From the NCBI RefSeq assembly GCF_003024685.1, contig NZ_PYLQ01000006.1, forward strand, positions 1-64,000: 64,000 bases of DNA, in the 5' to 3' direction. The notes below the pieces were generated by a model that had not been told where the DNA came from, did no database searches, and saw only the letters and a program-made list of their open reading frames with translations. Within the stretch, counting starts at the first letter, position 1. Each line of letters starts with the position of its first letter. The position numbers and the translations under genes are program-made. Shown here one piece after another: positions 1,287 through 11,491 of the stretch. This DNA comes from Faecalibacillus intestinalis (GTDB lineage: Bacteria; Bacillota_I; Bacilli_A; Erysipelotrichales; Coprobacillaceae).

Positions 1287-1380
1287 AAAATATACCTCCT
1301 ACTATATATATCGACTATTTTTTTGCTTTTTTCTTTAAAAAAATAAAAAATTTTTATTCTTTTAGTCACATAGCTTTTGC

Positions 1381-1407
1381 TTGACATGGATAAGTGAATG
1401 TTATATT
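1381..1407 (+). promoter_or_regulatory. Candidate promoter for luxS
   Basis: TTGACA at 1381-1386 and an extended TG-n-TATATT at 1399-1407 are separated by only 15 bp, so the pair is short-spaced. It lies about 65 bases upstream of the luxS start in a non-coding AT-rich stretch. Confidence 0.4.
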
Positions 1408-1472
1408 CTTATATCATACTAATTATATATGAAATAAATAAATTGGTACAAAATAAAATGGGGGAATTAAAA

Positions 1473-1919
1473 ATGGAAAGAATTACAAGTTTTAGTGTTG
1501 ATCATCGAAAACTAACTAAAGGAGTTTATGTATCAAGAATTGATGGGGATTTGATTACATATGATATTCGAATGACACAGCCTAATGTTGAACCAGCTTT
1601 AAAACCAGAAGCAGCACATACGATTGAACATATTGGCGCAACATTACTTAGAAATGGTAAATATAAAGATCGAGTGATTTATTTTGGACCAATGGGCTGT
1701 ATGACAGGCTTTTATTTGATTGTGAGAGATTTAGATTTAGAAGTGATTAAAGAAGTTGTAAAAGATGTTTATAGTCAAATTGCCTCTTGGGATCAAGAGA
1801 TTCCAGGGGCTAAGGAAGAAGAATGTGGAAATTATACATTTATGGATTTAGAAGCAGCTAAAAAAGCAGCTGATTATTTTGTAAACAGTAAATGGGAACA
1901 TGAATATCATCTATTATAA
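1473..1919 (+). CDS. luxS: S-ribosylhomocysteine lyase LuxS
   Basis: A 148-residue protein matching LuxS, which cleaves S-ribosylhomocysteine to homocysteine and the AI-2 precursor DPD in the activated methyl cycle. The metal-binding HTIEH motif is near residue 55, followed by the conserved GCMTGFYL segment and a distal Cys in EEECGNY. The start is set at MERITSFSV because it follows a GGGGGAAT ribosome site; an upstream in-frame ATG would add 25 non-conserved residues. It is followed closely by a decayed amino-acid-binding lipoprotein gene; a link to sulfur amino acid uptake is inferred. Confidence 0.95.
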   Translation: MERITSFSVDHRKLTKGVYVSRIDGDLITYDIRMTQPNVEPALKPEAAHTIEHIGATLLRNGKYKDRVIYFGPMGCMTGFYLIVRDLDLEVIKEVVKDVYSQIASWDQEIPGAKEEECGNYTFMDLEAAKKAADYFVNSKWEHEYHLL

Positions 1920-1932
1920 AGTGGAAACAACA

Positions 1933-2418
1933 ATGAAAAAATAAGGAATTAAATTATTAGCACTTACCTTACTAGCAACTGTAACAACAGGATGTGCATC
2001 ATCTAAACAAGAAAATACATGGGATAAAATTAAAGAAAAGAAAGAAATCGTGATTGGAACAGAAGGAACATTTGCTCCATTTTCATATCATGATGATAAC
2101 GATAATTTAGTAGGTTATGATGTAGAAGTATCAGAAGCGCTTGCTAAAGAATTAGGGGTTAAAGTTAAATTTGTAGAAGTTAAATGGGATAGTTTAATTG
2201 CTGGATTAGATTCAGATAAATATGATTTAGTAACAAATCAAGTAGCAATTACTGCTGAAAGAAAGAAAAAATATGATTTTTCAATTCCACATACATACTC
2301 ATATCCAGCAATTATCACTAAAAAAGATAATACAGAAATCACTAAAATGAGTGATATCAAAGGACATAAATTTTCACAAACAGGTCATGGTTTATCCATG
2401 ACTTTTATGCATCTCTAA
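1933..2418 (+). pseudogene. Amino-acid ABC transporter substrate-binding lipoprotein, disrupted
   Basis: The frame opens ATG AAA AAA TAA, so codon 4 is a stop. It then continues with a lipoprotein signal (lipobox TVTTGC), an IVIGTEGTFAPFSYHD strand and a GYDVEVSEALAKELG helix typical of family-3 solute-binding proteins for cystine or polar amino acids. The reading frame ends after about 160 codons, against roughly 260-280 in the family, losing most of the second lobe. The tail runs straight into a terminator hairpin, suggesting an internal deletion joined the first lobe to the native 3' end. The product is presumably not made. Confidence 0.85.
2384..2406 (+). terminator. Intrinsic terminator at the end of the decayed binding-protein gene
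   Basis: GTCATGG and CCATGAC form a 7-bp stem with loop TTTAT, followed by TTTT. It overlaps the end of the truncated frame and abuts the stop of the convergent minus-strand operon. Confidence 0.65.
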
Positions 2419-4360
2419 CATATACTATTTTATTCTTTTTTAAATCTTTAATGATTATTTTAATTTCTTTATTTTTTTTAGTGCTATCTGTTATATAAGA
2501 TAAATATTTTCCATCTATTGATATTTTTAATGAATATACTTTTTCTTTTGTTAACAAGGTACTTTCTTTATAAGTAAAATCATACATAAATAAACCATCA
2601 TTTTGGGTGTAATATAGTTTATCTTTATATATATCACTATTTTCAATTTGTTCATTAAATAGAATTTGATTATCACAATATAACTTATCATCTTGAATAT
2701 TGTGTAAATAGAGATGATTATTTTTTATATAGAAATAATCACATAATGGAGTATCTAATTTTTCTTTTTTAAATGTATCTAGAGATATTTTAATGATTGT
2801 ATAATCATCTTGTAGAAAATAAAGATATTGATGATAAATAGAATAATGGTTTGTTAATTTTCCTTTATAAACAACTTTATTATTTTGATTAGTTATTTTG
2901 TCGCTATAAATAATATAATATCTATTCTTGTTACCAATAATACCTAATATATTTTTATCTGAAATAGGGATATGTTGTTGTTCTATATTCATAAAATTTT
3001 TCTGTAAAGAAGATAACTTTTTTAATTTAACATCTTGAAAATCATTATTAAAGAGATATAAATATTCACTTTCATCATCGTCAATAGTATAAAAAAAACC
3101 ATCTTTTTGAGGAAACACGTTAATTAAATTATTACTAGATTCATAAAGATTTCTTATTAAAGAATACTCTTTCCAATCATTTTTATCTATTATCTTATTA
3201 GAAAAATAATAATATTCTTTATTTTCCGCAAAGTTAAGTTCATGATAACTATTGTATTGAAAACTAGATGAATTATTTTGATTACTTGAACAACCAGTTA
3301 TTAATATTAATAAAGAAAGAAAAATCAAGTTCTTTCTTTTTCCTTTAAAAAAAGAAAGAAGAAAGAATATAAAGATAATAATCAATTCAATAATTACTAT
3401 ATGAAAATCTATGCCTAACATTTTTTCACCATAACCTGCAAAATAGCGACCAGGAACAAGAAAACTAATAAAAGGAAAATAAAGAATATGTATACTATTT
3501 CCTAAGAAAGCTAAAGGAATATAGACGAAAATAAAAAGTACAAGCAAAATAAAGATATTAGAATGAATAAATTTTTTTAGTAAAATACTTAGACTACATA
3601 AAAGATAACTCGCTATATAGTAAAGAAATGTACAAAAGCATATAAATGTTATTAATGAAATGTTTGGACAATTTTTTGAACACCAAGGAATATTAATTAT
3701 TGAAAAATCTAATCTAGAAAAATGTTTAAAAATAAGTATTTTACCAATAGTCATTAAAATTAAAAATAATCCCCATATACAACTAAATACAAATATTTTA
3801 CTCTTTTTAGCATTCTTAATACCATTAGATGTTGTTTTTTCATAAATCCATATATGATCATCTATTTCTTTTAAATAGATACTATAAATAAGAAAGAAAA
3901 GGAAGAGAATGAGAATAAAATCTAGATTGTTAAAATTTAAACAATCAGTATACTTTGTATTAACTATTTCCTTATGTTGAGTATTTTTAATTTTTAAATA
4001 ATATAAGTAGAAAGAATTTAATGCATCTTTTTTTAAAATATTAGAATTATTTTTTCTTTGTTTTTTTAGATATTCTTTTTGAGTAATTTGATGATTTTGA
4101 TATTCTTTTAAAATATCTTCATTATTTTCATAAGAATTTAATTCTTTTAGAATTTGTTTTTCTTTTGAATTATTTGGAATACCAGAGTATTTATTTATGT
4201 ATTGATCATAAATTTGTGTAGTAGTATCACGGTTTATTTTTGTTTGATGTAGATTTATATATAAAGTTGAGAAAGATGTAAAAAGTAAAATAAGAATAAT
4301 GAGTAAACCTTTATTATTTTTAAAAAATAAACGAAAATATAATTTAATTAATTGATACAT
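2405..4360 (-). CDS. ABC-2-type permease fused to a lipobox-led extracellular domain
   Basis: A 651-residue protein. Residues 1-340 look like an ABC-2-type membrane subunit: a cytoplasmic start, a first hydrophobic helix near 17-35, a polar loop, then about five helices. At about residue 341 a basic KGKRKN segment precedes a hydrophobic helix ending LITGCSSNQ, which has exactly the form of a lipoprotein signal with lipobox. The remaining roughly 295 residues repeat aromatic, Asp/Asn-rich strands (YYYFSN, YLYFLQDD, LYYTQNDG), suggesting a beta-propeller. No Met lies where a separate lipoprotein could start. The frame overlaps the preceding permease by 17 bases. It may be a gene fusion, possibly cut by signal peptidase II. 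Function unknown. Confidence 0.7.
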   Translation of the reverse strand: MYQLIKLYFRLFFKNNKGLLIILILLFTSFSTLYINLHQTKINRDTTTQIYDQYINKYSGIPNNSKEKQILKELNSYENNEDILKEYQNHQITQKEYLKKQRKNNSNILKKDALNSFYLYYLKIKNTQHKEIVNTKYTDCLNFNNLDFILILFLFFLIYSIYLKEIDDHIWIYEKTTSNGIKNAKKSKIFVFSCIWGLFLILMTIGKILIFKHFSRLDFSIINIPWCSKNCPNISLITFICFCTFLYYIASYLLCSLSILLKKFIHSNIFILLVLFIFVYIPLAFLGNSIHILYFPFISFLVPGRYFAGYGEKMLGIDFHIVIIELIIIFIFFLLSFFKGKRKNLIFLSLLILITGCSSNQNNSSSFQYNSYHELNFAENKEYYYFSNKIIDKNDWKEYSLIRNLYESSNNLINVFPQKDGFFYTIDDDESEYLYLFNNDFQDVKLKKLSSLQKNFMNIEQQHIPISDKNILGIIGNKNRYYIIYSDKITNQNNKVVYKGKLTNHYSIYHQYLYFLQDDYTIIKISLDTFKKEKLDTPLCDYFYIKNNHLYLHNIQDDKLYCDNQILFNEQIENSDIYKDKLYYTQNDGLFMYDFTYKESTLLTKEKVYSLKISIDGKYLSYITDSTKKNKEIKIIIKDLKKNKIVYVRDA

Positions 4361-5450
4361 AATATCTCCTCTTAAATAGAAAATAGGTAAAAAAATTTAA
4401 ATTTAAAATGATAAATGAAAATAATAAGGAACTCATAAAAATCTTTTGATTATATATAGAATCATTTAAAGATGAAAAACTAATAATACTTAATAGATTG
4501 TTGTTATATAACTGAATTGAAATATAAATAATCAATATAGCAATAAAAAATCCTTTATATTCCTTGTTTAAAAAATGACAAAGAAATAAAAATAAATAAG
4601 AGAAAGATAAACACCCAACTAAACGAAAAAAATAATTACAAACAATATAAAAGAATATAGAAATATTATAGGGTTCATACATAAAATGAGATAATGCATA
4701 AAGTGGTTGAAATAAACCATTTTTCATTCCTAAAAAATAATAAATAAGATAACTTTCTATTAACAATAATAAAGAAGAAATAAACGTAAATAACAAGATC
4801 ATTAATATCTTTGATATAAATATTTTCTTTATTTGTTTTCTAGAAATATAAAAATATAAATCTGTTTGTTTTTGTTTTTCATAGATGAATAATTTGATTA
4901 CTAAGATAATACAAAATATAAGGGATAATAGATATTGAAAATCTTGATTCATAAAATTATTGATTAAGGTATAATCATAGTAGTAGCTAAGATTTCTATT
5001 TTTTAATCTTTTTTTAAGCATTATATTTTCTTTTTTCCATTTACTATTTTGAGTTTTTTTAATATTTTCATCTAGAATAGTGATTTTATTTTTAATTGAA
5101 GAATGATAATTGATTGTATATTCATAATCTTCTAATAAATTATTACTTATCTGTTCATCACCGAAAACATAACCTGAAAAAGTATTTTTAGACTTGTTTT
5201 TGGTATTATAGTTTCCATTATTTACTTGTTCTAACATCGTATTATGATAATTAACAAGCCAATCATATTTTTGTTGAGAAATAGGGCCTTCAATTATTTT
5301 TAATATTTTTCTTTTTCCTGTATTAATATCTCCATATATATTTTGATAATTGACATATATGATTTGTAAATTGTTTAAGACAAGCAAAAGAATAAATAAG
5401 ACTTTAATTGATTTAGAACGTAATAACTTATATAATTCACCTTTTATCAT
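4344..5450 (-). CDS. ABC-2-type transporter permease
   Basis: A 368-residue membrane protein starting MIKGELYKLLRSKS, the usual cytoplasmic opening of ABC-2-type permeases. There is one early helix (about 15-35), a long polar loop of about 120 residues, and about five hydrophobic helices in the C-terminal half. The start at 5450 follows GGTGATG inside the end of the ATPase gene; in-frame ATGs at 5462 and 5456 lie further upstream. It overlaps the genes on both sides, so translation is probably coupled. Together with the ATPase and the fused permease it should form one exporter. Substrate unknown. Confidence 0.8.
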   Translation of the reverse strand: MIKGELYKLLRSKSIKVLFILLLVLNNLQIIYVNYQNIYGDINTGKRKILKIIEGPISQQKYDWLVNYHNTMLEQVNNGNYNTKNKSKNTFSGYVFGDEQISNNLLEDYEYTINYHSSIKNKITILDENIKKTQNSKWKKENIMLKKRLKNRNLSYYYDYTLINNFMNQDFQYLLSLIFCIILVIKLFIYEKQKQTDLYFYISRKQIKKIFISKILMILLFTFISSLLLLIESYLIYYFLGMKNGLFQPLYALSHFMYEPYNISIFFYIVCNYFFRLVGCLSFSYLFLFLCHFLNKEYKGFFIAILIIYISIQLYNNNLLSIISFSSLNDSIYNQKIFMSSLLFSFIILNLNFFTYFLFKRRYYVSIN

Positions 5451-6291
5451 AAACATCACCATAATAATAAAGATAAATATCTTCTAAATTTATTTCTTTA
5501 CAATGTGGAAATAATTCATCTTTATGAGAAAAAAACTTAATTTTATAATCATCGTTAATAGGTACAATAGAAGAAACATGATATGTTTCTATATATTTTT
5601 GTAGATCATTTTTTGAAACGATCGTTTCATAAAAGAATTGTTTTAATGATAATATTAATTCTTGTGGACTTTTAAAATCTAATAATTGTCCGTTTTTAAA
5701 GAATATAAGAGATTTAGCTAGATGATCCATATCTTGAATAATATGAGTAGAAATAATAATAATTTTATTTTTTGAAAGATTTCTCAAGAGATTTTTAAGT
5801 CTTAATCTTTCAATAGGGTCTAAACCTGTTGTAGGTTCATCTAATAATAAAATTTGAGGATCATTTATGATTGCCTGAGCAATAGATAAACGTTGCTTCA
5901 TGCCTCCAGATAATTTTTTAATCTTGATGTATTTTTGATCATATAAATTAACTAATTTTAAAGTATGATCTATTTGATTTTTATCAATTGATTTAAGTGC
6001 ACAAATATATTCAAGAAATTCATTACAAGTAAGATCAACATATAAAGCAGGAGATTGAGGAACATATCCAAAGACATGATAAAAATCATCACTTAAAAAT
6101 TTAACTTCATCAATTTCAATTGTTCCACTATCATTTTTAATAAGTCCACATAAAATACTTAAAAAAGTAGTTTTTCCTGCTCCATTAGGACCAATTAATC
6201 CATAGATTCCAGATGATAAATGTAAAGTAATATGATCTAATGCTTTTTTGTTTTTATAATACTTTGATAAATCATTTATATAAATATTCAT
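5437..6291 (-). CDS. ABC transporter ATP-binding protein
   Basis: A 284-residue ATPase with Walker A (GPNGAGKTTF, near 35-44), signature LSGGMKQRLS (near 130), Walker B ILLLDEPTTGLDP and the switch histidine in ISTHI. The layout fits ABC-2-type export or bacteriocin-immunity ATPases. The roughly 80-residue C-terminal tail is poorly conserved. Its start touches the stop of the upstream lipoprotein gene and its end overlaps the permease, so all are one transcript. It would power the two adjacent permeases from the cytoplasm. Confidence 0.92.
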   Translation of the reverse strand: MNIYINDLSKYYKNKKALDHITLHLSSGIYGLIGPNGAGKTTFLSILCGLIKNDSGTIEIDEVKFLSDDFYHVFGYVPQSPALYVDLTCNEFLEYICALKSIDKNQIDHTLKLVNLYDQKYIKIKKLSGGMKQRLSIAQAIINDPQILLLDEPTTGLDPIERLRLKNLLRNLSKNKIIIISTHIIQDMDHLAKSLIFFKNGQLLDFKSPQELILSLKQFFYETIVSKNDLQKYIETYHVSSIVPINDDYKIKFFSHKDELFPHCKEINLEDIYLYYYGDVYDKR

Positions 6292-7136
6292 TACTTTACC
6301 ACCAATGAAGTACTTTCTTCTGGAAGATTACTTGAAAGAGGAATAGCAATAGCTTTTACATTTTTTGTTTTATTTCCTGGTTTATAGCTTAATACTGCAC
6401 TTTTATTTTTAGGAAGTTCTATATGGTAGCTAGATACAGGTTTTAAATCTTCTAATACCCAAAGAATATAATTATCAGAAATACCACTCATTTTTATAGT
6501 AATAGGTTTATTTTTCTTAAAATTTCCTTCTAAGTTATTAGGAAATTGAATAAGTAAATTATTATCAAAATAACCTTCTTCATCATGTTTTAATAAATCA
6601 GATGTATAATCAATTAAATCATAATTGTTATTTAAATCTATAGGATTATTAGCAGTATCTTGATGAATATCAATAAAAGTAGTACCACAAGCCATCATAT
6701 GTTGTTTATTAGTAAGTTGTTTAAGAGAATCAACAATTTCATAATCAGCTATTAAAAAAGCATGCATATAAAGATGATCACCTTTACTACCAGTATTAGG
6801 CATAATAGAAACATGCTCAGTTTTATTAGTGTCTTTCTTTCCTTTAAATGTGTAGACTAAACTTTCTTTATCTTCATGCTTAATCATTTGAGGAATACCA
6901 TTAATAAATATCATTAAACCAAAATTTGCATCTCTACCTACAACTTCATAATCATAATTAATATCTACATCTTTACCATCAAAATTATAACCATCTTCAA
7001 TATGATGCAATCCAAAACCTACTTTTAAATCAACTGTTTCTTGATTGTTGTTCTTTTTAATCGTTATATTTTCCTGTTTGGTACTACATCCAACAAGTAA
7101 AAATATACAAAACATACTGAGCATTATTTTTTTCAT
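6291..7136 (-). CDS. Predicted lipoprotein in the exporter operon
   Basis: A 281-residue protein with an N-terminal signal ending LLVGCS (Cys17), a lipoprotein lipobox. The rest is exported and strand-rich (GFGLHHIEDGYNFDG, VDINYDYEVVGRD) without large hydrophobic segments. No family is recognised. It overlaps the upstream lipoprotein gene by four bases and abuts the ATPase start, indicating one operon. A role as an extracytoplasmic partner of the exporter, for chaperoning, maturation or self-protection, is inference from position only. Confidence 0.7.
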   Translation of the reverse strand: MKKIMLSMFCIFLLVGCSTKQENITIKKNNNQETVDLKVGFGLHHIEDGYNFDGKDVDINYDYEVVGRDANFGLMIFINGIPQMIKHEDKESLVYTFKGKKDTNKTEHVSIMPNTGSKGDHLYMHAFLIADYEIVDSLKQLTNKQHMMACGTTFIDIHQDTANNPIDLNNNYDLIDYTSDLLKHDEEGYFDNNLLIQFPNNLEGNFKKNKPITIKMSGISDNYILWVLEDLKPVSSYHIELPKNKSAVLSYKPGNKTKNVKAIAIPLSSNLPEESTSLVVK

Positions 7137-8143
7137 TCTGTTACCTCTCTTTTTATAAAAGTAGTTTTCTCATTCTGTTTACCTATAATAAATAATTGGT
7201 GATCAACATATTCAGCAAATAAAATATTATCTAGCTCATTAAAATCATATTTTACATTATTGAAAATAATATAAGGTTTCCAATCATCAACACTTCCTTT
7301 TTCTGTAATAATAATCTTTCTATTACTTAAATAACAATTTACAGAATTTTCATAATTAAATCCTAAATCATTAAATCCATTATCATAATAAACAGCAATC
7401 TTATCTTTATTAGCACCATAGCCTTCATCTTGATTATGAATAATACTTTTATCTTTAAAAGAACTTAAAGTAACTTGGGGACTATTATATAAACTATAAT
7501 TTTGATGATCTATATCTATTACTCCATAACATCCAGAAGTTTGTTGACCTTGTTTTAAATATGTTCCACCAGTATAAATAAGGGATTTATCATTTGTGAA
7601 AGCTAATTCCCATATAGCATTTAATTTTCTAGGTGTATCATCTAAAGTAAGAACAGTGCTAACTAAGCGAGAATTTCTATCTAATAATAAAACACTTTCT
7701 GTATCATAATTCATTTTTACACATGAAATAAATTGACCGGATGATGAAACAGCTAAACTATCATATTCAAATTCATCAAAAAAATTATTTAAATCAATAT
7801 GATTTTTAAGTTCATGATTTTGAAATAAGAATAAAGTGTCTGTTAGTTGAATAGCATATATATCTTGAAGAACATGTATTTTAGCTTTATTAACAGGCCC
7901 ATCAAAAATCATTGTGTTTAATAATTCTTTATTTTTTTCTATAGAATAATCATAAACATATGTTTGATTATTTTTTTTATAAACGAATATTAAATTATGA
8001 TCTATGATTTTAAAATCAATGATTTCATATTTTGATAATTGTTGGTAATCTTGAGTTTTCTTAACTGTTTTTACTTTATGATTATTTGTGGTTTGACAAC
8101 CACATAGTAATATGACTAAAAAAATGGTTATTATTTTTTTCAT
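7133..8143 (-). CDS. Predicted lipoprotein with propeller-like repeats
   Basis: A 336-residue protein beginning MKKIITIFLVILLCGC, with lipobox LLCGC and acylation at Cys16. The body alternates short strands with turns (VYDYSIEKN, LLLDRNSRL, LIYTGGTYL) in a way that suggests a beta-propeller, similar in texture to the C-terminal half of the fused permease. The start is set at 8143 because a GAGGTTAACT ribosome site precedes it; longer in-frame starts give an implausible leader. It is the first clearly intact gene of the exporter operon. No enzyme motif seen. Confidence 0.65.
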   Translation of the reverse strand: MKKIITIFLVILLCGCQTTNNHKVKTVKKTQDYQQLSKYEIIDFKIIDHNLIFVYKKNNQTYVYDYSIEKNKELLNTMIFDGPVNKAKIHVLQDIYAIQLTDTLFLFQNHELKNHIDLNNFFDEFEYDSLAVSSSGQFISCVKMNYDTESVLLLDRNSRLVSTVLTLDDTPRKLNAIWELAFTNDKSLIYTGGTYLKQGQQTSGCYGVIDIDHQNYSLYNSPQVTLSSFKDKSIIHNQDEGYGANKDKIAVYYDNGFNDLGFNYENSVNCYLSNRKIIITEKGSVDDWKPYIIFNNVKYDFNELDNILFAEYVDHQLFIIGKQNEKTTFIKREVTE

Positions 8144-8216
8144 AGTTAACCTCATTATAGAAAATATCATTTTTGATAATTTAATAGTTATTATCAAAAA
8201 TGATATTTATATTAAT

Positions 8217-8615
8217 TTAATATTGTGTAGATGTATAAACATGATATCCAGTTGTATGAATAGCATCATGTGTTCCATAAAATGTAACTTTAGTTCCAGT
8301 ATATCCCCAACATTCTAATGTATCTCCAACACCAGAACTATTTGCATGTTGGTTTTGAGTAGAACCAATATTAGCACCAGTGCTAGTTTTTTTAGCTTCT
8401 ATTTTTATTTTGATAGATTTAACATTTTGACCAATAGTGGTACCACCTTCACACAATTTAGATGATCCACTATTATAAGGAGATATAAATCCTTTTAATG
8501 TACCATATGGTGTTGATTTTGTTGTTGATTTAGCAGCGGATACAGAGTTTACATTTCCAAATGCCATAAGTAGTGCGAAACTTAACGTTACAAATAATTT
8601 AATTTTATTTTTTTA
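8217..8615 (-). pseudogene. Small exported protein, start codon apparently lost
   Basis: From the first internal ATG (8567) the frame gives 116 residues ending YHVYTSTQY. Upstream in the same frame the codons KNKIKLFVTLSFALLMAF give a good secretion signal followed by an SVSAA cleavage site, but no start codon exists: the frame opens just after TAA at 8615-8613. Adding one G before the A-run would create ATG AAA AAA AAT with AAAGGA 11 bases upstream, so a one-base deletion is likely. The mature part is Gly/Ser/Thr-rich with two cysteines (KLCEGG, LECWGY). It heads the exporter operon and could be its substrate. If the deletion is a sequence error, the gene is intact. Confidence 0.55.
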
Positions 8616-8641
8616 TAATTTAATATTCCTTTCATTAGTTT

Positions 8642-8692
8642 AGGTTGACGTCTACCTTAGTTTTATTATATCTTATATTACTATATTGTCAA
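8642..8692 (-). promoter_or_regulatory. Promoter and palindromic operator of the exporter operon
   Basis: On the minus strand TTGACA (8692-8687) and TATAAT (8670-8665) are 16 bp apart. The inferred start near 8658 is immediately followed by a 16-bp near-palindrome AGGTTGACGTCTACCT (8642-8657, one mismatched pair). A plus-strand pair TTGTCA (8686-8691) and TAGTAT (8710-8715), 18 bp apart, could serve padR, so the two -35 boxes would overlap. The palindrome is a candidate operator, perhaps for the adjacent PadR protein. Confidence 0.5.
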
Positions 8693-8761
8693 TAATACCT
8701 TTATAATAATAGTATGGTAATTATAATATTATACTGCTATAATTATTTTGGTGATAAAATT

Positions 8762-9100
8762 ATGGCAAAATCAAATAGCTTTTTTAATATTGATATGCTT
8801 GTTTTAAGTTTGTTAAAAGTAAGTGATTGCTATGGATATGAATTAGTAAAAAAAATCAAAGAAGTTTCAAATAATACATTAGATATAAAAGAAGGTACAC
8901 TTTATCCCGTAGTGCATAACCTATTGAAAAAAGAATACATTTCTAGTCGAGATGAAATAGTAAATAAAAAAGTAAGAGTTTATTATCATATTGAACCTAT
9001 AGGAAGAGACTATCTAGAAAAAACAATTACTGATTTTAGAAAAAATATTAAAGGTGTATTCGACATTATTGAATATGGTGAGGTGGAAAAAAATGAATAA
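8762..9100 (+). CDS. PadR-family transcriptional regulator
   Basis: A 112-residue protein with the PadR winged-helix signature: an N-terminal helix, CYGYELVKKIKEVSNNTLDIKEGTLYPVVHNL, then a wing and a C-terminal dimer helix. PadR proteins usually repress genes for membrane or efflux functions. The start is the ATG after GGTGATAAAATT; an upstream in-frame ATG gives a poor leader. It is divergent from the exporter operon and overlaps the next gene by eight bases. It is the likely local regulator, but binding is not shown. Confidence 0.88.
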   Translation: MAKSNSFFNIDMLVLSLLKVSDCYGYELVKKIKEVSNNTLDIKEGTLYPVVHNLLKKEYISSRDEIVNKKVRVYYHIEPIGRDYLEKTITDFRKNIKGVFDIIEYGEVEKNE

Positions 9101-9470
9101 AGATTCAAAAAAATTTATTAAATATGTAAAAAGAATAATTCCTATCCATTCAAAAGATAAAAGAGAATTTATCTTATTATTAACTCAAAGAATAAAAGAA
9201 TTTTCAGGCGATTTAGAGAGATGTACTTATCAGGATATTGTAAATGAATTTGGTACACCTAATGAGGTTGCAGGATCTTATATTGAAAATATGGAAAGTA
9301 ATGAACTCATAAAAAAACTAAATAGGAAAAAGTTATTTCAATATTTTCTTTTAACACTTCTAATTTTAATAACTCTATTATGGGGATTTAAAATGTATAG
9401 ATTAAATCAATTATATGAAGAAGCAAAATCAGAAACACATGGTTATATTACTGAAGAAATTATTAAATAA
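9093..9470 (+). CDS. Membrane protein with HAAS-like N-terminal domain
   Basis: A 125-residue protein. The N-terminal 75 residues are helical and contain CTYQDIVNEFGTPNEVAGS, the FG-x-P turn typical of HAAS/DUF1700-type domains that often follow PadR genes. A single hydrophobic segment (about residues 85-103, YFLLTLLILITLLWGF) and a short polar tail follow. The start overlaps the padR stop, so translation is probably coupled. Such PadR-HAAS pairs are thought to sense membrane state; the ligand here is unknown. Confidence 0.65.
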   Translation: MNKDSKKFIKYVKRIIPIHSKDKREFILLLTQRIKEFSGDLERCTYQDIVNEFGTPNEVAGSYIENMESNELIKKLNRKKLFQYFLLTLLILITLLWGFKMYRLNQLYEEAKSETHGYITEEIIK

Positions 9471-9483
9471 AAGGAGAAAATTT

Positions 9484-9936
9484 ATGAAAAAAATTATATT
9501 ATTTTTAAGCTTATTTTGTATTTTATGCATACCTTCACAAGTAAATGCTTATAATTATGAAAATATTTCACAGATAGAATATTTGGAAGATGGTTCGTAT
9601 ATTGAAACAACTATATTTGTATCTAATGATTATGCTAGATCTCAAAAAACTGCTAGTAAAATTGCTAGATATAATAGTAGTACGGGCGTTCAACAATGGT
9701 ATGTAACTGTAACTGGAACGTTCTCATATGGGAATGGATCAGCAAAATGTATTTCATCATCAGTTAAGTCAGGTGTATATAATAATAAATGGGCTATTTC
9801 GAGTAAATCTGCTTCTAAATCAGGAGCAACAGCAATAGCATCTGCAACAGCAAAACATAGCTATGATAATACAGCTTATGAAACAAAAAAATTAACTGTT
9901 AGGCTTACTTGTAGCTCTACAGGAGTATTATCATAA
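9484..9936 (+). CDS. Small exported protein of unknown function
   Basis: A 150-residue protein with a clean signal peptide (MKKIILFLSLFCILCIPSQ, cleavage after VNA). The mature part is Ser/Thr/Ala-rich, with VQQWYVTVTGTFSYGNGSA and the repeated word SKSASKSGATAIASATA, suggesting a small beta-rich secreted fold. Two Cys residues (AKCIS, LTCSS) may pair. The ribosome site AAGGAG is close to the ATG. It is third in the padR operon and, like the small protein at 8217, is exported and strand-rich. I do not recognise the family with confidence. Confidence 0.6.
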   Translation: MKKIILFLSLFCILCIPSQVNAYNYENISQIEYLEDGSYIETTIFVSNDYARSQKTASKIARYNSSTGVQQWYVTVTGTFSYGNGSAKCISSSVKSGVYNNKWAISSKSASKSGATAIASATAKHSYDNTAYETKKLTVRLTCSSTGVLS

Positions 9937-10058
9937 TAATTGAATAGCATTACAAGGTAAATATCAGATTTCATTAAGTTATATAGCATTTGTCATTTTA
10001 TATAATTGTATGTTTATAATTATATTTAAGTATTTGTTATTTATTGTTTTTGATATGA

Positions 10059-10244
10059 ATTAACTATCCAGTATTAAAATATAATCCTCAGCTCATAAGT
10101 AAAAAAGGAACGTCAGAACATGGAATTGGTTTATCAAGTGTAAAATCAACTTTAAAAAAATATAAATCTGAAATATCTTTTTCAGAAGATAAATATTGGT
10201 TTACTGTTCTTATAGTTATTGATAAATACGAATATATTCATTAG
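10059..10244 (+). pseudogene. C-terminal fragment of a GHKL sensor kinase
   Basis: In one frame, after a stop at 10056, the bases encode about 61 residues including KKGTSEHGIGLSSV. This is the G-x-G-L loop of the GHKL ATPase domain found in AgrC/LytS-type quorum-sensing kinases. The fragment ends at TAG 10242-10244. The sensor and dimerisation parts are missing and no start is visible. The rest of the 9937-10313 gap is AT-rich without other coding signal. Confidence 0.7.
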
Positions 10245-10253
10245 TATTCATTT

Positions 10254-10285
10254 AAAAGAAATTGTTCATCTACAATTTCTTTTTT
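10254..10285 (+). terminator. Intrinsic terminator
   Basis: The stem AAAAGAAATTG / CAATTTCTTTT has an 8-base loop and a following T-run. It closes the island and lies just upstream of the TetR gene. Confidence 0.7.
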
Positions 10286-10313
10286 GTTATAATGTGGTAA
10301 ATGAGGTAATGAT

Positions 10314-10847
10314 ATGAAAAAAACAAAAGAAACAATTATTGATGCTTTTTGGCAATTATTAGAGGAAAAACCATTTAATAAGATAACTGTTCAAAATATT
10401 GTCGAACGCTGTCATTTAAATAGAAATACATTCTACTATCATTTTCAAGATATTCCTAATTTAGCAGAATATACTGTTAAATCATGGGCAGATCAAATTA
10501 TTCAAAATAACTATGAATTTGGTTCACCAATGACATGTCTTGTACCACTTATAGAAGAATGTAATCAACATAAAAAAGCTTTTCAACATCTTTATAATTC
10601 ATCACAAAAAGATGAGTTTATTACCTATATGAATCATGTAGCCTTACATATTGTAAAAATGTTTATGAAACAATCTTCTCATTATGTTTTACGAAGTGAA
10701 CAAGAAAAAGAAACACTTATTCATTTTTATAAATGTTTAATGATAGGTATTCTTATTGATTGGTTAGAAGCACAAGGTGATTATGATTTAAAACCATTTG
10801 TTGAACAAATATTTCATTTAATAGAAACAACAATACAGGCTCATTAG
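10314..10847 (+). CDS. TetR/AcrR-family transcriptional regulator
   Basis: A 177-residue regulator. The N-terminal helix-turn-helix reads ITVQNIVERCHLNRNTFYYHFQD (residues about 24-46), diagnostic for TetR. The C-terminal domain, with a long HIVKMFMKQ helix and a Trp/Leu-rich end, resembles the DhaS-like C-terminal family. Its target may be the downstream HdeD-like gene, which is separated only by the terminator. Ligand unknown. Confidence 0.88.
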   Translation: MKKTKETIIDAFWQLLEEKPFNKITVQNIVERCHLNRNTFYYHFQDIPNLAEYTVKSWADQIIQNNYEFGSPMTCLVPLIEECNQHKKAFQHLYNSSQKDEFITYMNHVALHIVKMFMKQSSHYVLRSEQEKETLIHFYKCLMIGILIDWLEAQGDYDLKPFVEQIFHLIETTIQAH

Positions 10848-10858
10848 GAGCCTTTTTT
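10838..10858 (+). terminator. Intrinsic terminator of the TetR gene
   Basis: GGCTC / GAGCC form a 5-bp stem with loop ATTAG, followed by six T. The stop codon of the TetR gene is inside the loop. Confidence 0.75.
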
Positions 10859-10933
10859 GGTTAATTCTTTTATTTTGTCCATTTTATGTTGATATAAATA
10901 AGATTATAGTAAAAGTAGAAAGAAGGAATGAAT

Positions 10934-11491
10934 ATGAAAACTTTAAATAAAGTAAAAATGAGTATATGGATTAATGCCTTAAGTGCAATAGTGATAGGTA
11001 TATTATTTTTAATAAATCCTCAAGAATCTTTTCAAATTATTACAATACTTGCTGGTATTATTATTACTTTTACAGGAATTATTGATTTTATTTATTATTT
11101 TAGTGGTTGGTTAGATATTTATTTTATGAAGAATACATTATTGAGTGGTATTTTAAAATGCGTATTAGGTATCTTTGTATTAACACATATATCAATGATG
11201 ACAACATTCTTTTCTTATATTTTTAGTTTATATATCATTATTAGTGCCATCTATTGTTTTGAAGCTTATACCTTTATTAAATCAATGGTTAGTTATTCTT
11301 TAACTTTTGATTATATTATTGTTACAATTTTAATTTTCACAGGACTTGCAATGTTCTTTTTGAGCCCAAGTACAGTCATTTCCTCTGCTTTTGTGATAGG
11401 AATTTTATTCCTTATTAATGGTATTGGAAACTTATTTATTGCTTTAAGACTTTCAAAGATTACAAAAGAATATCGTAGATATCTTCAATAA
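10934..11491 (+). CDS. HdeD/DUF308-like integral membrane protein
   Basis: A 185-residue protein with about six hydrophobic helices and the repeated INxxxAIVIGILFLINP / FVIGILFLINGIG pattern of HdeD-type DUF308 proteins, which are built from paired two-helix units. In enterobacteria HdeD is acid-stress linked; the role in Firmicutes is not established. The start is set at 10934, where GAAGGA is six bases away; the ATG two codons upstream is too close to the ribosome site. Confidence 0.75.
   Translation: MKTLNKVKMSIWINALSAIVIGILFLINPQESFQIITILAGIIITFTGIIDFIYYFSGWLDIYFMKNTLLSGILKCVLGIFVLTHISMMTTFFSYIFSLYIIISAIYCFEAYTFIKSMVSYSLTFDYIIVTILIFTGLAMFFLSPSTVISSAFVIGILFLINGIGNLFIALRLSKITKEYRRYLQ

Follow-up and report, generated by a model that had tools for sequence, protein, structure and literature searches.

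A small secreted beta protein and a conserved cassette of two lipoproteins and an ABC transporter form a putative antibacterial and immunity locus in Faecalibacillus intestinalis

Immunity based on a LanI lipoprotein together with an ATP-binding cassette (ABC) transporter is known (PMC8538875). Lactococcin 972-type loci consist of a gene for a small unmodified secreted bacteriocin, which is followed by genes for a membrane protein and an ABC transporter (PMC11161930), and in pneumococcus non-producing immune 'cheater' strains are known (PMC4739721). Here, a locus of Faecalibacillus intestinalis is compared with these systems. It lies in a stretch of 64,000 nucleotides (contig NZ_PYLQ01000006.1, positions 1 to 64,000), in the following called the window, and comprises the gene of a small secreted protein, SEP1, and a five-gene ABC cassette. 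On a narrow balance of probability, SEP1 is a Sec-exported, bacteriocin-like protein and the cassette its immunity or detoxification module, not its exporter. This reading is based on the linkage of both, the promoter-proximal position of SEP1, the hairpin behind it, the quorum-sensing neighbours, the loss of SEP1 where the cassette is kept and the existence of OmpR-controlled copies without SEP1. The genes are arranged as follows (window coordinates):

8217..8612 (5′ end at about 8612), minus strand: SEP1, small secreted beta protein that has lost its start codon; the mature domain of 104 amino acids (from 8531) is intact
7133..8140, minus strand: LIP2, lipoprotein of 335 amino acids, lipobox 'ILLCGCQT'; homologues found
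6291..7136, minus strand: LIP1, lipoprotein of 281 amino acids, lipobox 'FLLVGCST'; homologues in loci L020, L021, L038, L039 and L040
5437..6291, minus strand: ATP, ABC ATPase of 284 amino acids (ABC_tran, E 3e-30)
4344..5462, minus strand: PERM, ABC-2-type permease of 372 amino acids; syntenic homologues, weak sub-threshold match to ABC2_membrane_4
2405..4360, minus strand: FUS, 651 amino acids, half of an ABC-2-type permease with a lipoprotein-like domain fused at the C-terminus; syntenic homologues

The five cassette genes (2405-4360, 4344-5462, 5437-6291, 6291-7136 and 7133-8140) overlap end to end by 1-26 bases and therefore form an operon behind SEP1, as stated in a preliminary description of this DNA, whose list of genes was confirmed as well. 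LIP2 most likely starts at the ATG at 8140 rather than at the TTG at 8197. FUS matches the adjoining PERM in a profile comparison (hhalign, E 8e-17) and contains an internal lipobox, 'ILITGCSS', recognized by sequence. The best curated match of the ATPase is GldA (6.3e-55, under the cutoff), followed by the lantibiotic-protection ATPase TIGR03740 (1.8e-52; 178 bits against a cutoff of 309.75). The L_ocin_972 ABC ATPase TIGR03608 reached 106 bits at a cutoff of 254.85, and Pfam and NCBIfam revealed no fused peptidase domain. LIP1, LIP2, FUS, SEP1 and SEP2, a second small secreted protein encoded nearby, gave no significant match in Pfam or NCBIfam. Signal peptides and transmembrane (TM) counts were derived from simple rules and sequence inspection. 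A propeller-like domain common to LIP2 and the C-terminal domain of FUS could not be shown, as the alignment covers the lipobox only, and homology between LIP1 and SEP1 was not supported by comparison.

Dozens of Erysipelotrichales and Clostridia genomes contain the five genes in synteny, and because this order recurs so widely, the arrangement is more than chance. Gene calls in these relatives are based on open reading frames (ORFs), and the relatives were annotated by ORF size and selected profiles only. The search with LIP1 led to L020 (genome G025) and L021 (G002) with the order LIP-LIP-ATP-PERM-FUS, where the order of the two lipoproteins is opposite to that in the window and in L038. A contig scan with an ATPase alignment mostly yielded unrelated ABC ATPases, hence a permease profile was used instead. 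It matched in 14 of 316 genomes of the same order (E≤1e-8, seven of them strong), in 21 of 392 genomes in the order of an Acetatifactor metagenome-assembled genome and in 38 of 394 in the order of an Oscillospiraceae metagenome-assembled genome (both at E≤1e-14). In a class-wide sample of 296 genomes only weaker matches were obtained apart from the window's own. Some of the weaker matches to the profile represent a variant that has one permease and, upstream, a different secreted protein. Two lipoproteins per transporter, an arrangement that had been described correctly but regarded as unusual, are a conserved trait of this locus type, and in some genomes both are joined in one protein of 680-730 amino acids. 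No relative of LIP2 was found on the plasmids searched, and none of SEP1 or the ATPase on the viral contigs.

Two further observations concern the cassette and its ATPase. A transposase-like gene pair lies between PERM and FUS in L039:9384-10588 (G203), where both of these genes are still open. Furthermore, close relatives of the ATPase occur in L051, L052, L053, L057 and L058 with ECF sigma/anti-sigma-like genes and one or two permeases, mostly without lipoproteins or a SEP gene; these could be a regulatory cousin of the cassette.

SEP1 was found to be tightly linked to the cassette. A six-frame search with the SEP1 profile gave members at cassette loci only, among the regions tested, and in the same scan about 45 other ABC loci (L051-L098) showed no SEP match at E<1e-3. 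In 148 related genomes, the SEP1 alignment detected six confident members, and all six adjoin LIP1 or LIP2; at L279, LIP1 alone of the cassette remains beside SEP1. A SEP1 homologue is present at 11 of the 51 annotated cassette-type loci, which are partly non-independent and include near-identical groups. Distant members are about 20% identical and have a YGTLKG-like start and a [FY]xTHE-like end. Between the window and L038, the SEP1 mature domain is the most conserved piece (56% identity, compared to 53% for the ATPase, 44% for LIP1, 36% for the permease and 32% for LIP2 and FUS) and was therefore constrained until recently.

SEP1 is the part of the locus that is damaged. In the window, no in-frame ATG, GTG or TTG lies ahead of the signal peptide, and since the sole in-frame ATG (8567) falls within it, SEP1 as annotated cannot be exported normally: the first small exported protein of the preliminary description is a real gene, but its normal export did not hold. 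The loss of the start codon could be an assembly error. L038 shows a 5′ break, by which the signal peptide is out of frame with the mature domain, and the L040 copy is a relic; intact genes were found in L020, L039, L278, L279 and the Clostridia copies. The cassette genes remain open where SEP1 is broken (window, L038) or a relic (L040). Programmed frameshifting is not favoured as an explanation, because the two genomes have different lesions and other copies are intact.

As had been noted before, neither exported protein belongs to a known family in Pfam, NCBIfam or PDB. The structure prediction that had been proposed as a check resulted in small all-beta folds of high confidence, with six strands for SEP1 and eight for SEP2 (AlphaFold; predicted local distance difference test, pLDDT, 94.5 and 90.5). 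A comparison of the two did not support homology.

The following elements are located around the start of the operon, and a kinase fragment lies beyond the divergent genes:

8692-8665, minus strand: promoter of the minus operon, TTGACA-16-TATAAT, consensus sigma-A-type
8642-8657, minus strand: palindrome AGGTTGACGTCTACCT, candidate operator at the expected start point of the minus operon
8160..8210, minus strand: hairpin between SEP1 and LIP2, stem of about 19 bp (dG -18.3, z -5.4), self-complementary match
10060..10244, plus strand: C-terminal scrap of a GHKL (AgrC-like) histidine kinase (PF14501, E 6e-8)

The hairpin is a candidate partial terminator or stabiliser and might function as an attenuator. 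Hairpins of unrelated sequence between SEP and the next gene reached z values of -5.4, -4.2, -4.3, -3.6 and -4.9 at five loci, and such a structure is present in most loci having a gap there. Among the control gaps in the window, which are few, one of 16 was below z -3.5. AgrB adjoins the SEP-bearing cassettes in L020 and L038. LytTR regulators are located beside those in L020, L039, L040, L222/L223 and L225, and GHKL kinases were found in L222 and L225. The quorum-sensing kinase of the window is a scrap, as described before; because of this and of the lost SEP1 start codon, the strain probably keeps immunity without producing, and it looks like an immune non-producer.

In a wide sense, as a secreted antibacterial that has its own immunity, SEP1 is a candidate bacteriocin by the signal peptide on the intact secreted copies and by the linkage to a putative immunity module. 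SEP1 would be transcribed first, from a strong promoter, and the hairpin would lower read-through into the following genes. The two surface lipoproteins may intercept SEP1-like proteins, or the lesion caused by them, and the two-permease ABC transporter with its extracytoplasmic lipoprotein domain may clear such proteins from the membrane, as LanI and LanFEG do. An earlier suggestion of a bacteriocin or self-protection locus is supported by the co-occurrence of SEP1-type proteins, lipoproteins and transporter across families, often near quorum-sensing genes. Several points weigh against the reading as a bacteriocin and immunity locus. SEP1 matched no PDB fold at E<1e-3 and no known bacteriocin by sequence, and two-component and Agr systems control other traits too. 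Furthermore, in G002 and several other genomes both SEP1 and an OmpR-kinase pair are missing from the vicinity of the cassette.

In about 11 cassettes without SEP1, the genes directly upstream encode an OmpR regulator and a HAMP kinase with two TM segments. Such cassettes would fit a general envelope-stress or antimicrobial-peptide sensing and resistance module without a toxin, in which SEP1 is an accessory decoy, ligand or sensor; ligand sensing by the surface lipoprotein domains is conceivable. BceRS-BceAB systems, which such a module would resemble, combine an OmpR-type two-component pair with an ABC transporter that has one 10-TM permease with a large extracellular loop. However, this single large permease is absent from the cassette, whose extracytoplasmic parts are lipoproteins. 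The first position of SEP1, the hairpin gap, the Agr/LytTR link and the fact that SEP1 is the broken part are also left unexplained, so that this main alternative is regarded as rather unlikely. SEP-bearing and OmpR-kinase cassettes do not overlap (11 vs. 11 loci, about nine vs. six independent clusters). This would be expected if the OmpR-kinase cassettes were resistance copies that stand alone.

The signal peptides of intact SEP1 homologues, recognized in L020, L039, L278, L203, L208, L223, L225, L232 and L234, are of the ordinary Sec type, so that no dedicated exporter is needed. The same type of signal peptide is found on SEP2 homologues. Export of SEP1, SEP2 or a processed signalling peptide by the ABC transporter, to which the operonic linkage and the Agr genes nearby in relatives could point, is therefore improbable, and the ATPase without a fused peptidase domain as well as the separate location of SEP2 and cassette in the other genomes examined also contradict it. 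The exporter built around two exported proteins that had been proposed for this locus is thus not supported. A surface structure of which SEP1 is a structural part, and which the module would assemble or maintain by GldA-like export of a surface component, would agree with GldA as the best, though sub-cutoff, ATPase match and with an all-beta, secreted SEP1, but it is equally improbable, since the patchy distribution, the low identity between genomes and the loss of SEP1 with the rest intact are atypical of structural machinery.

SEP2 belongs to a second module on the plus strand, which in the window shares the divergent promoter region with SEP1:

8762..9100, plus strand: PadR family regulator (PF03551, E 1e-17)
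9093..9470, plus strand: DUF6120 membrane protein, HAAS-like (PF19615, E 6e-13)
9484..9936, plus strand: SEP2, second small secreted beta protein, 150 amino acids

The first two genes, which had been correctly recognized as padR and HAAS-like, have the arrangement of a PadR-HAAS regulatory pair. SEP2 matches were found in 14 of 118 genomes, the window's own counted, and padR-DUF6120-SEP2 is kept as a unit in most of the 15 SEP2 loci of these 14 genomes. Its neighbours elsewhere are other secreted proteins, lipoproteins, small 3-TM proteins or integrases, not the cassette. Of the co-occurrence expected for one system, the part concerning SEP1 and the cassette lipoproteins was thus found, and that concerning SEP2 was missing in the other genomes examined. 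In L038, a divergent padR lies beside SEP1 without SEP2. The best PDB match of SEP2 is the weak one to lmo2686 of Listeria (4k15, function unknown; E 4e-3); a profile match to antibody heavy chains was discarded as a general beta-sandwich or composition match. A universal PadR operator across divergent promoters was not established, since palindromes are present but differ.

Additional observations were made around related units. In L254, L255, L260, L262 and L264, padR-DUF6120-SEP2 is located near unrelated secreted proteins of 140-275 amino acids, which are paired with 3-TM or lipoprotein genes and several of which lie near phage-type integrases; these pairs look like other producer/immunity pairs. 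The same genome as the window contains paralogous padR-DUF6120 pairs without SEP2 in L009:6742-7901 (contig C51) and L010:3959-7459 (C30). Two further proteins are encoded beside the pair on C30: a secreted one with DUF2599 (PF10783, E 1.7e-12) and a thioredoxin-like one that weakly matches PedC/BrcD. In L038:1738-2013 and L049:3693-4145, too, small thioredoxin-like proteins are encoded near these loci; their matches to the PedC/BrcD family of bacteriocin maturation are below the cutoff. Upstream of padR in L009, L010, L254 and L260, CG-centred palindromes like GAAAACGTTTTC or GGAAGCGCTTTCC, which resemble cre/LacI-type operators, lie near the divergent promoter.

Both modules, which are separable, lie in one acquired block of the genome (G000, 2.79 Mb):

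2385..10247, no strand: acquired block, in place of the 3′ end of an amino-acid solute-binding protein (SBP) gene and its permease and ATPase genes
1934..2404, plus strand: remnant of the amino-acid SBP gene (SBP_bac_3; PF00497, E 2.5e-32)

The block of about 7.86 kb was horizontally acquired and replaced ancestral genes. It is located between luxS and a TetR gene, where the 3′ part of an amino-acid ABC transporter operon was. The genus-mate G003 can be aligned to window positions 1375-2384 (luxS and the first part of the SBP gene) and 10248-11491 (TetR), and its 1.74 kb between these stretches contain the rest of the SBP gene, the permease and the ATPase, all intact. In the genus-mate G004, the TetR gene directly follows luxS, without the block. 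The GC content is 20-25% inside the block and about 25-31% in the flanking stretches. Because of these alignments and of the lower-GC DNA in this place, 2405-10244 fits an insertion or replacement almost to the base. The SBP remnant is truncated by the block and, in addition, interrupted by a stop at codon 4; its homologue in L284 is intact (272 amino acids). PADLOC gave generic ATPase matches only and no defence system. Further upstream, a minus-strand ORF of 297 amino acids at 393-1286 has no Pfam family at the gathering score. A 97% identical copy of its DNA is located at G000:C3, and further copies in the genome have diverged, so that the ORF is probably a mobile-element gene.

The locus represents a type that is conserved in common gut bacteria and apparently has no name yet; literature searches on it and on DUF6120 found nothing. 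The two new secreted protein families with confident predicted structures are associated here with a claim on competition and self-protection, and the order of secreted protein, hairpin, two lipoproteins, ABC ATPase and permease-lipoprotein fusion provides curators with a marker architecture to find such loci. If the immunity reading is true, the numerous cassettes without SEP1 constitute a resistance reservoir against SEP1-like proteins. Tentatively, and with somewhat less than even expectation, SEP1 may be the founding member of an undescribed class of antibacterial proteins in gut Firmicutes, which are folded, all-beta and exported by Sec and have an immunity type of their own, made up of two lipoproteins and an ABC transporter, one permease of which ends in a lipoprotein domain; SEP2 with PadR and DUF6120 would be a second such family.

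Compared to the known systems, the SEP-less cassettes share with BceRS-BceAB the OmpR-type pair directly upstream of an ABC transporter, but they have a permease pair (372 and 651 amino acids) and separate lipoproteins instead of a single large permease. As in Lactococcin 972-type loci, the gene of a small secreted protein is followed by genes for a membrane protein and an ABC transporter. However, the permeases are different, two lipoproteins are present, and neither Lactococcin_972 (Pfam and NCBIfam; no match of the window protein at E≤1 or of 11 relatives at E≤0.1) nor its ABC family was found at the curated cutoffs. The Blp loci of pneumococcus also combine peptide quorum sensing, diverse secreted proteins and immunity genes kept in 'cheaters' (PMC4739721), but there the dedicated ABC exporter BlpA is broken, whereas here it is the gene of the secreted protein, which is exported by Sec. 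Finally, LanI and LanFEG (e.g., NisI/NisFEG) likewise combine a surface lipoprotein and an ABC transporter of two permease genes and one ATPase beside the gene of a secreted antimicrobial, and the lantibiotic-protection ATPase is among the nearest curated families of the cassette ATPase. The locus differs by two large lipoproteins, a third lipoprotein domain fused to a permease and a folded Sec protein of about 11 kDa as partner. Since the ATPase is under the TIGR03740 cutoff and no lanthionine modification genes are among the block ORFs, it does not belong to this group, of which LanI/LanFEG would be the best functional analogue for the locus described here.

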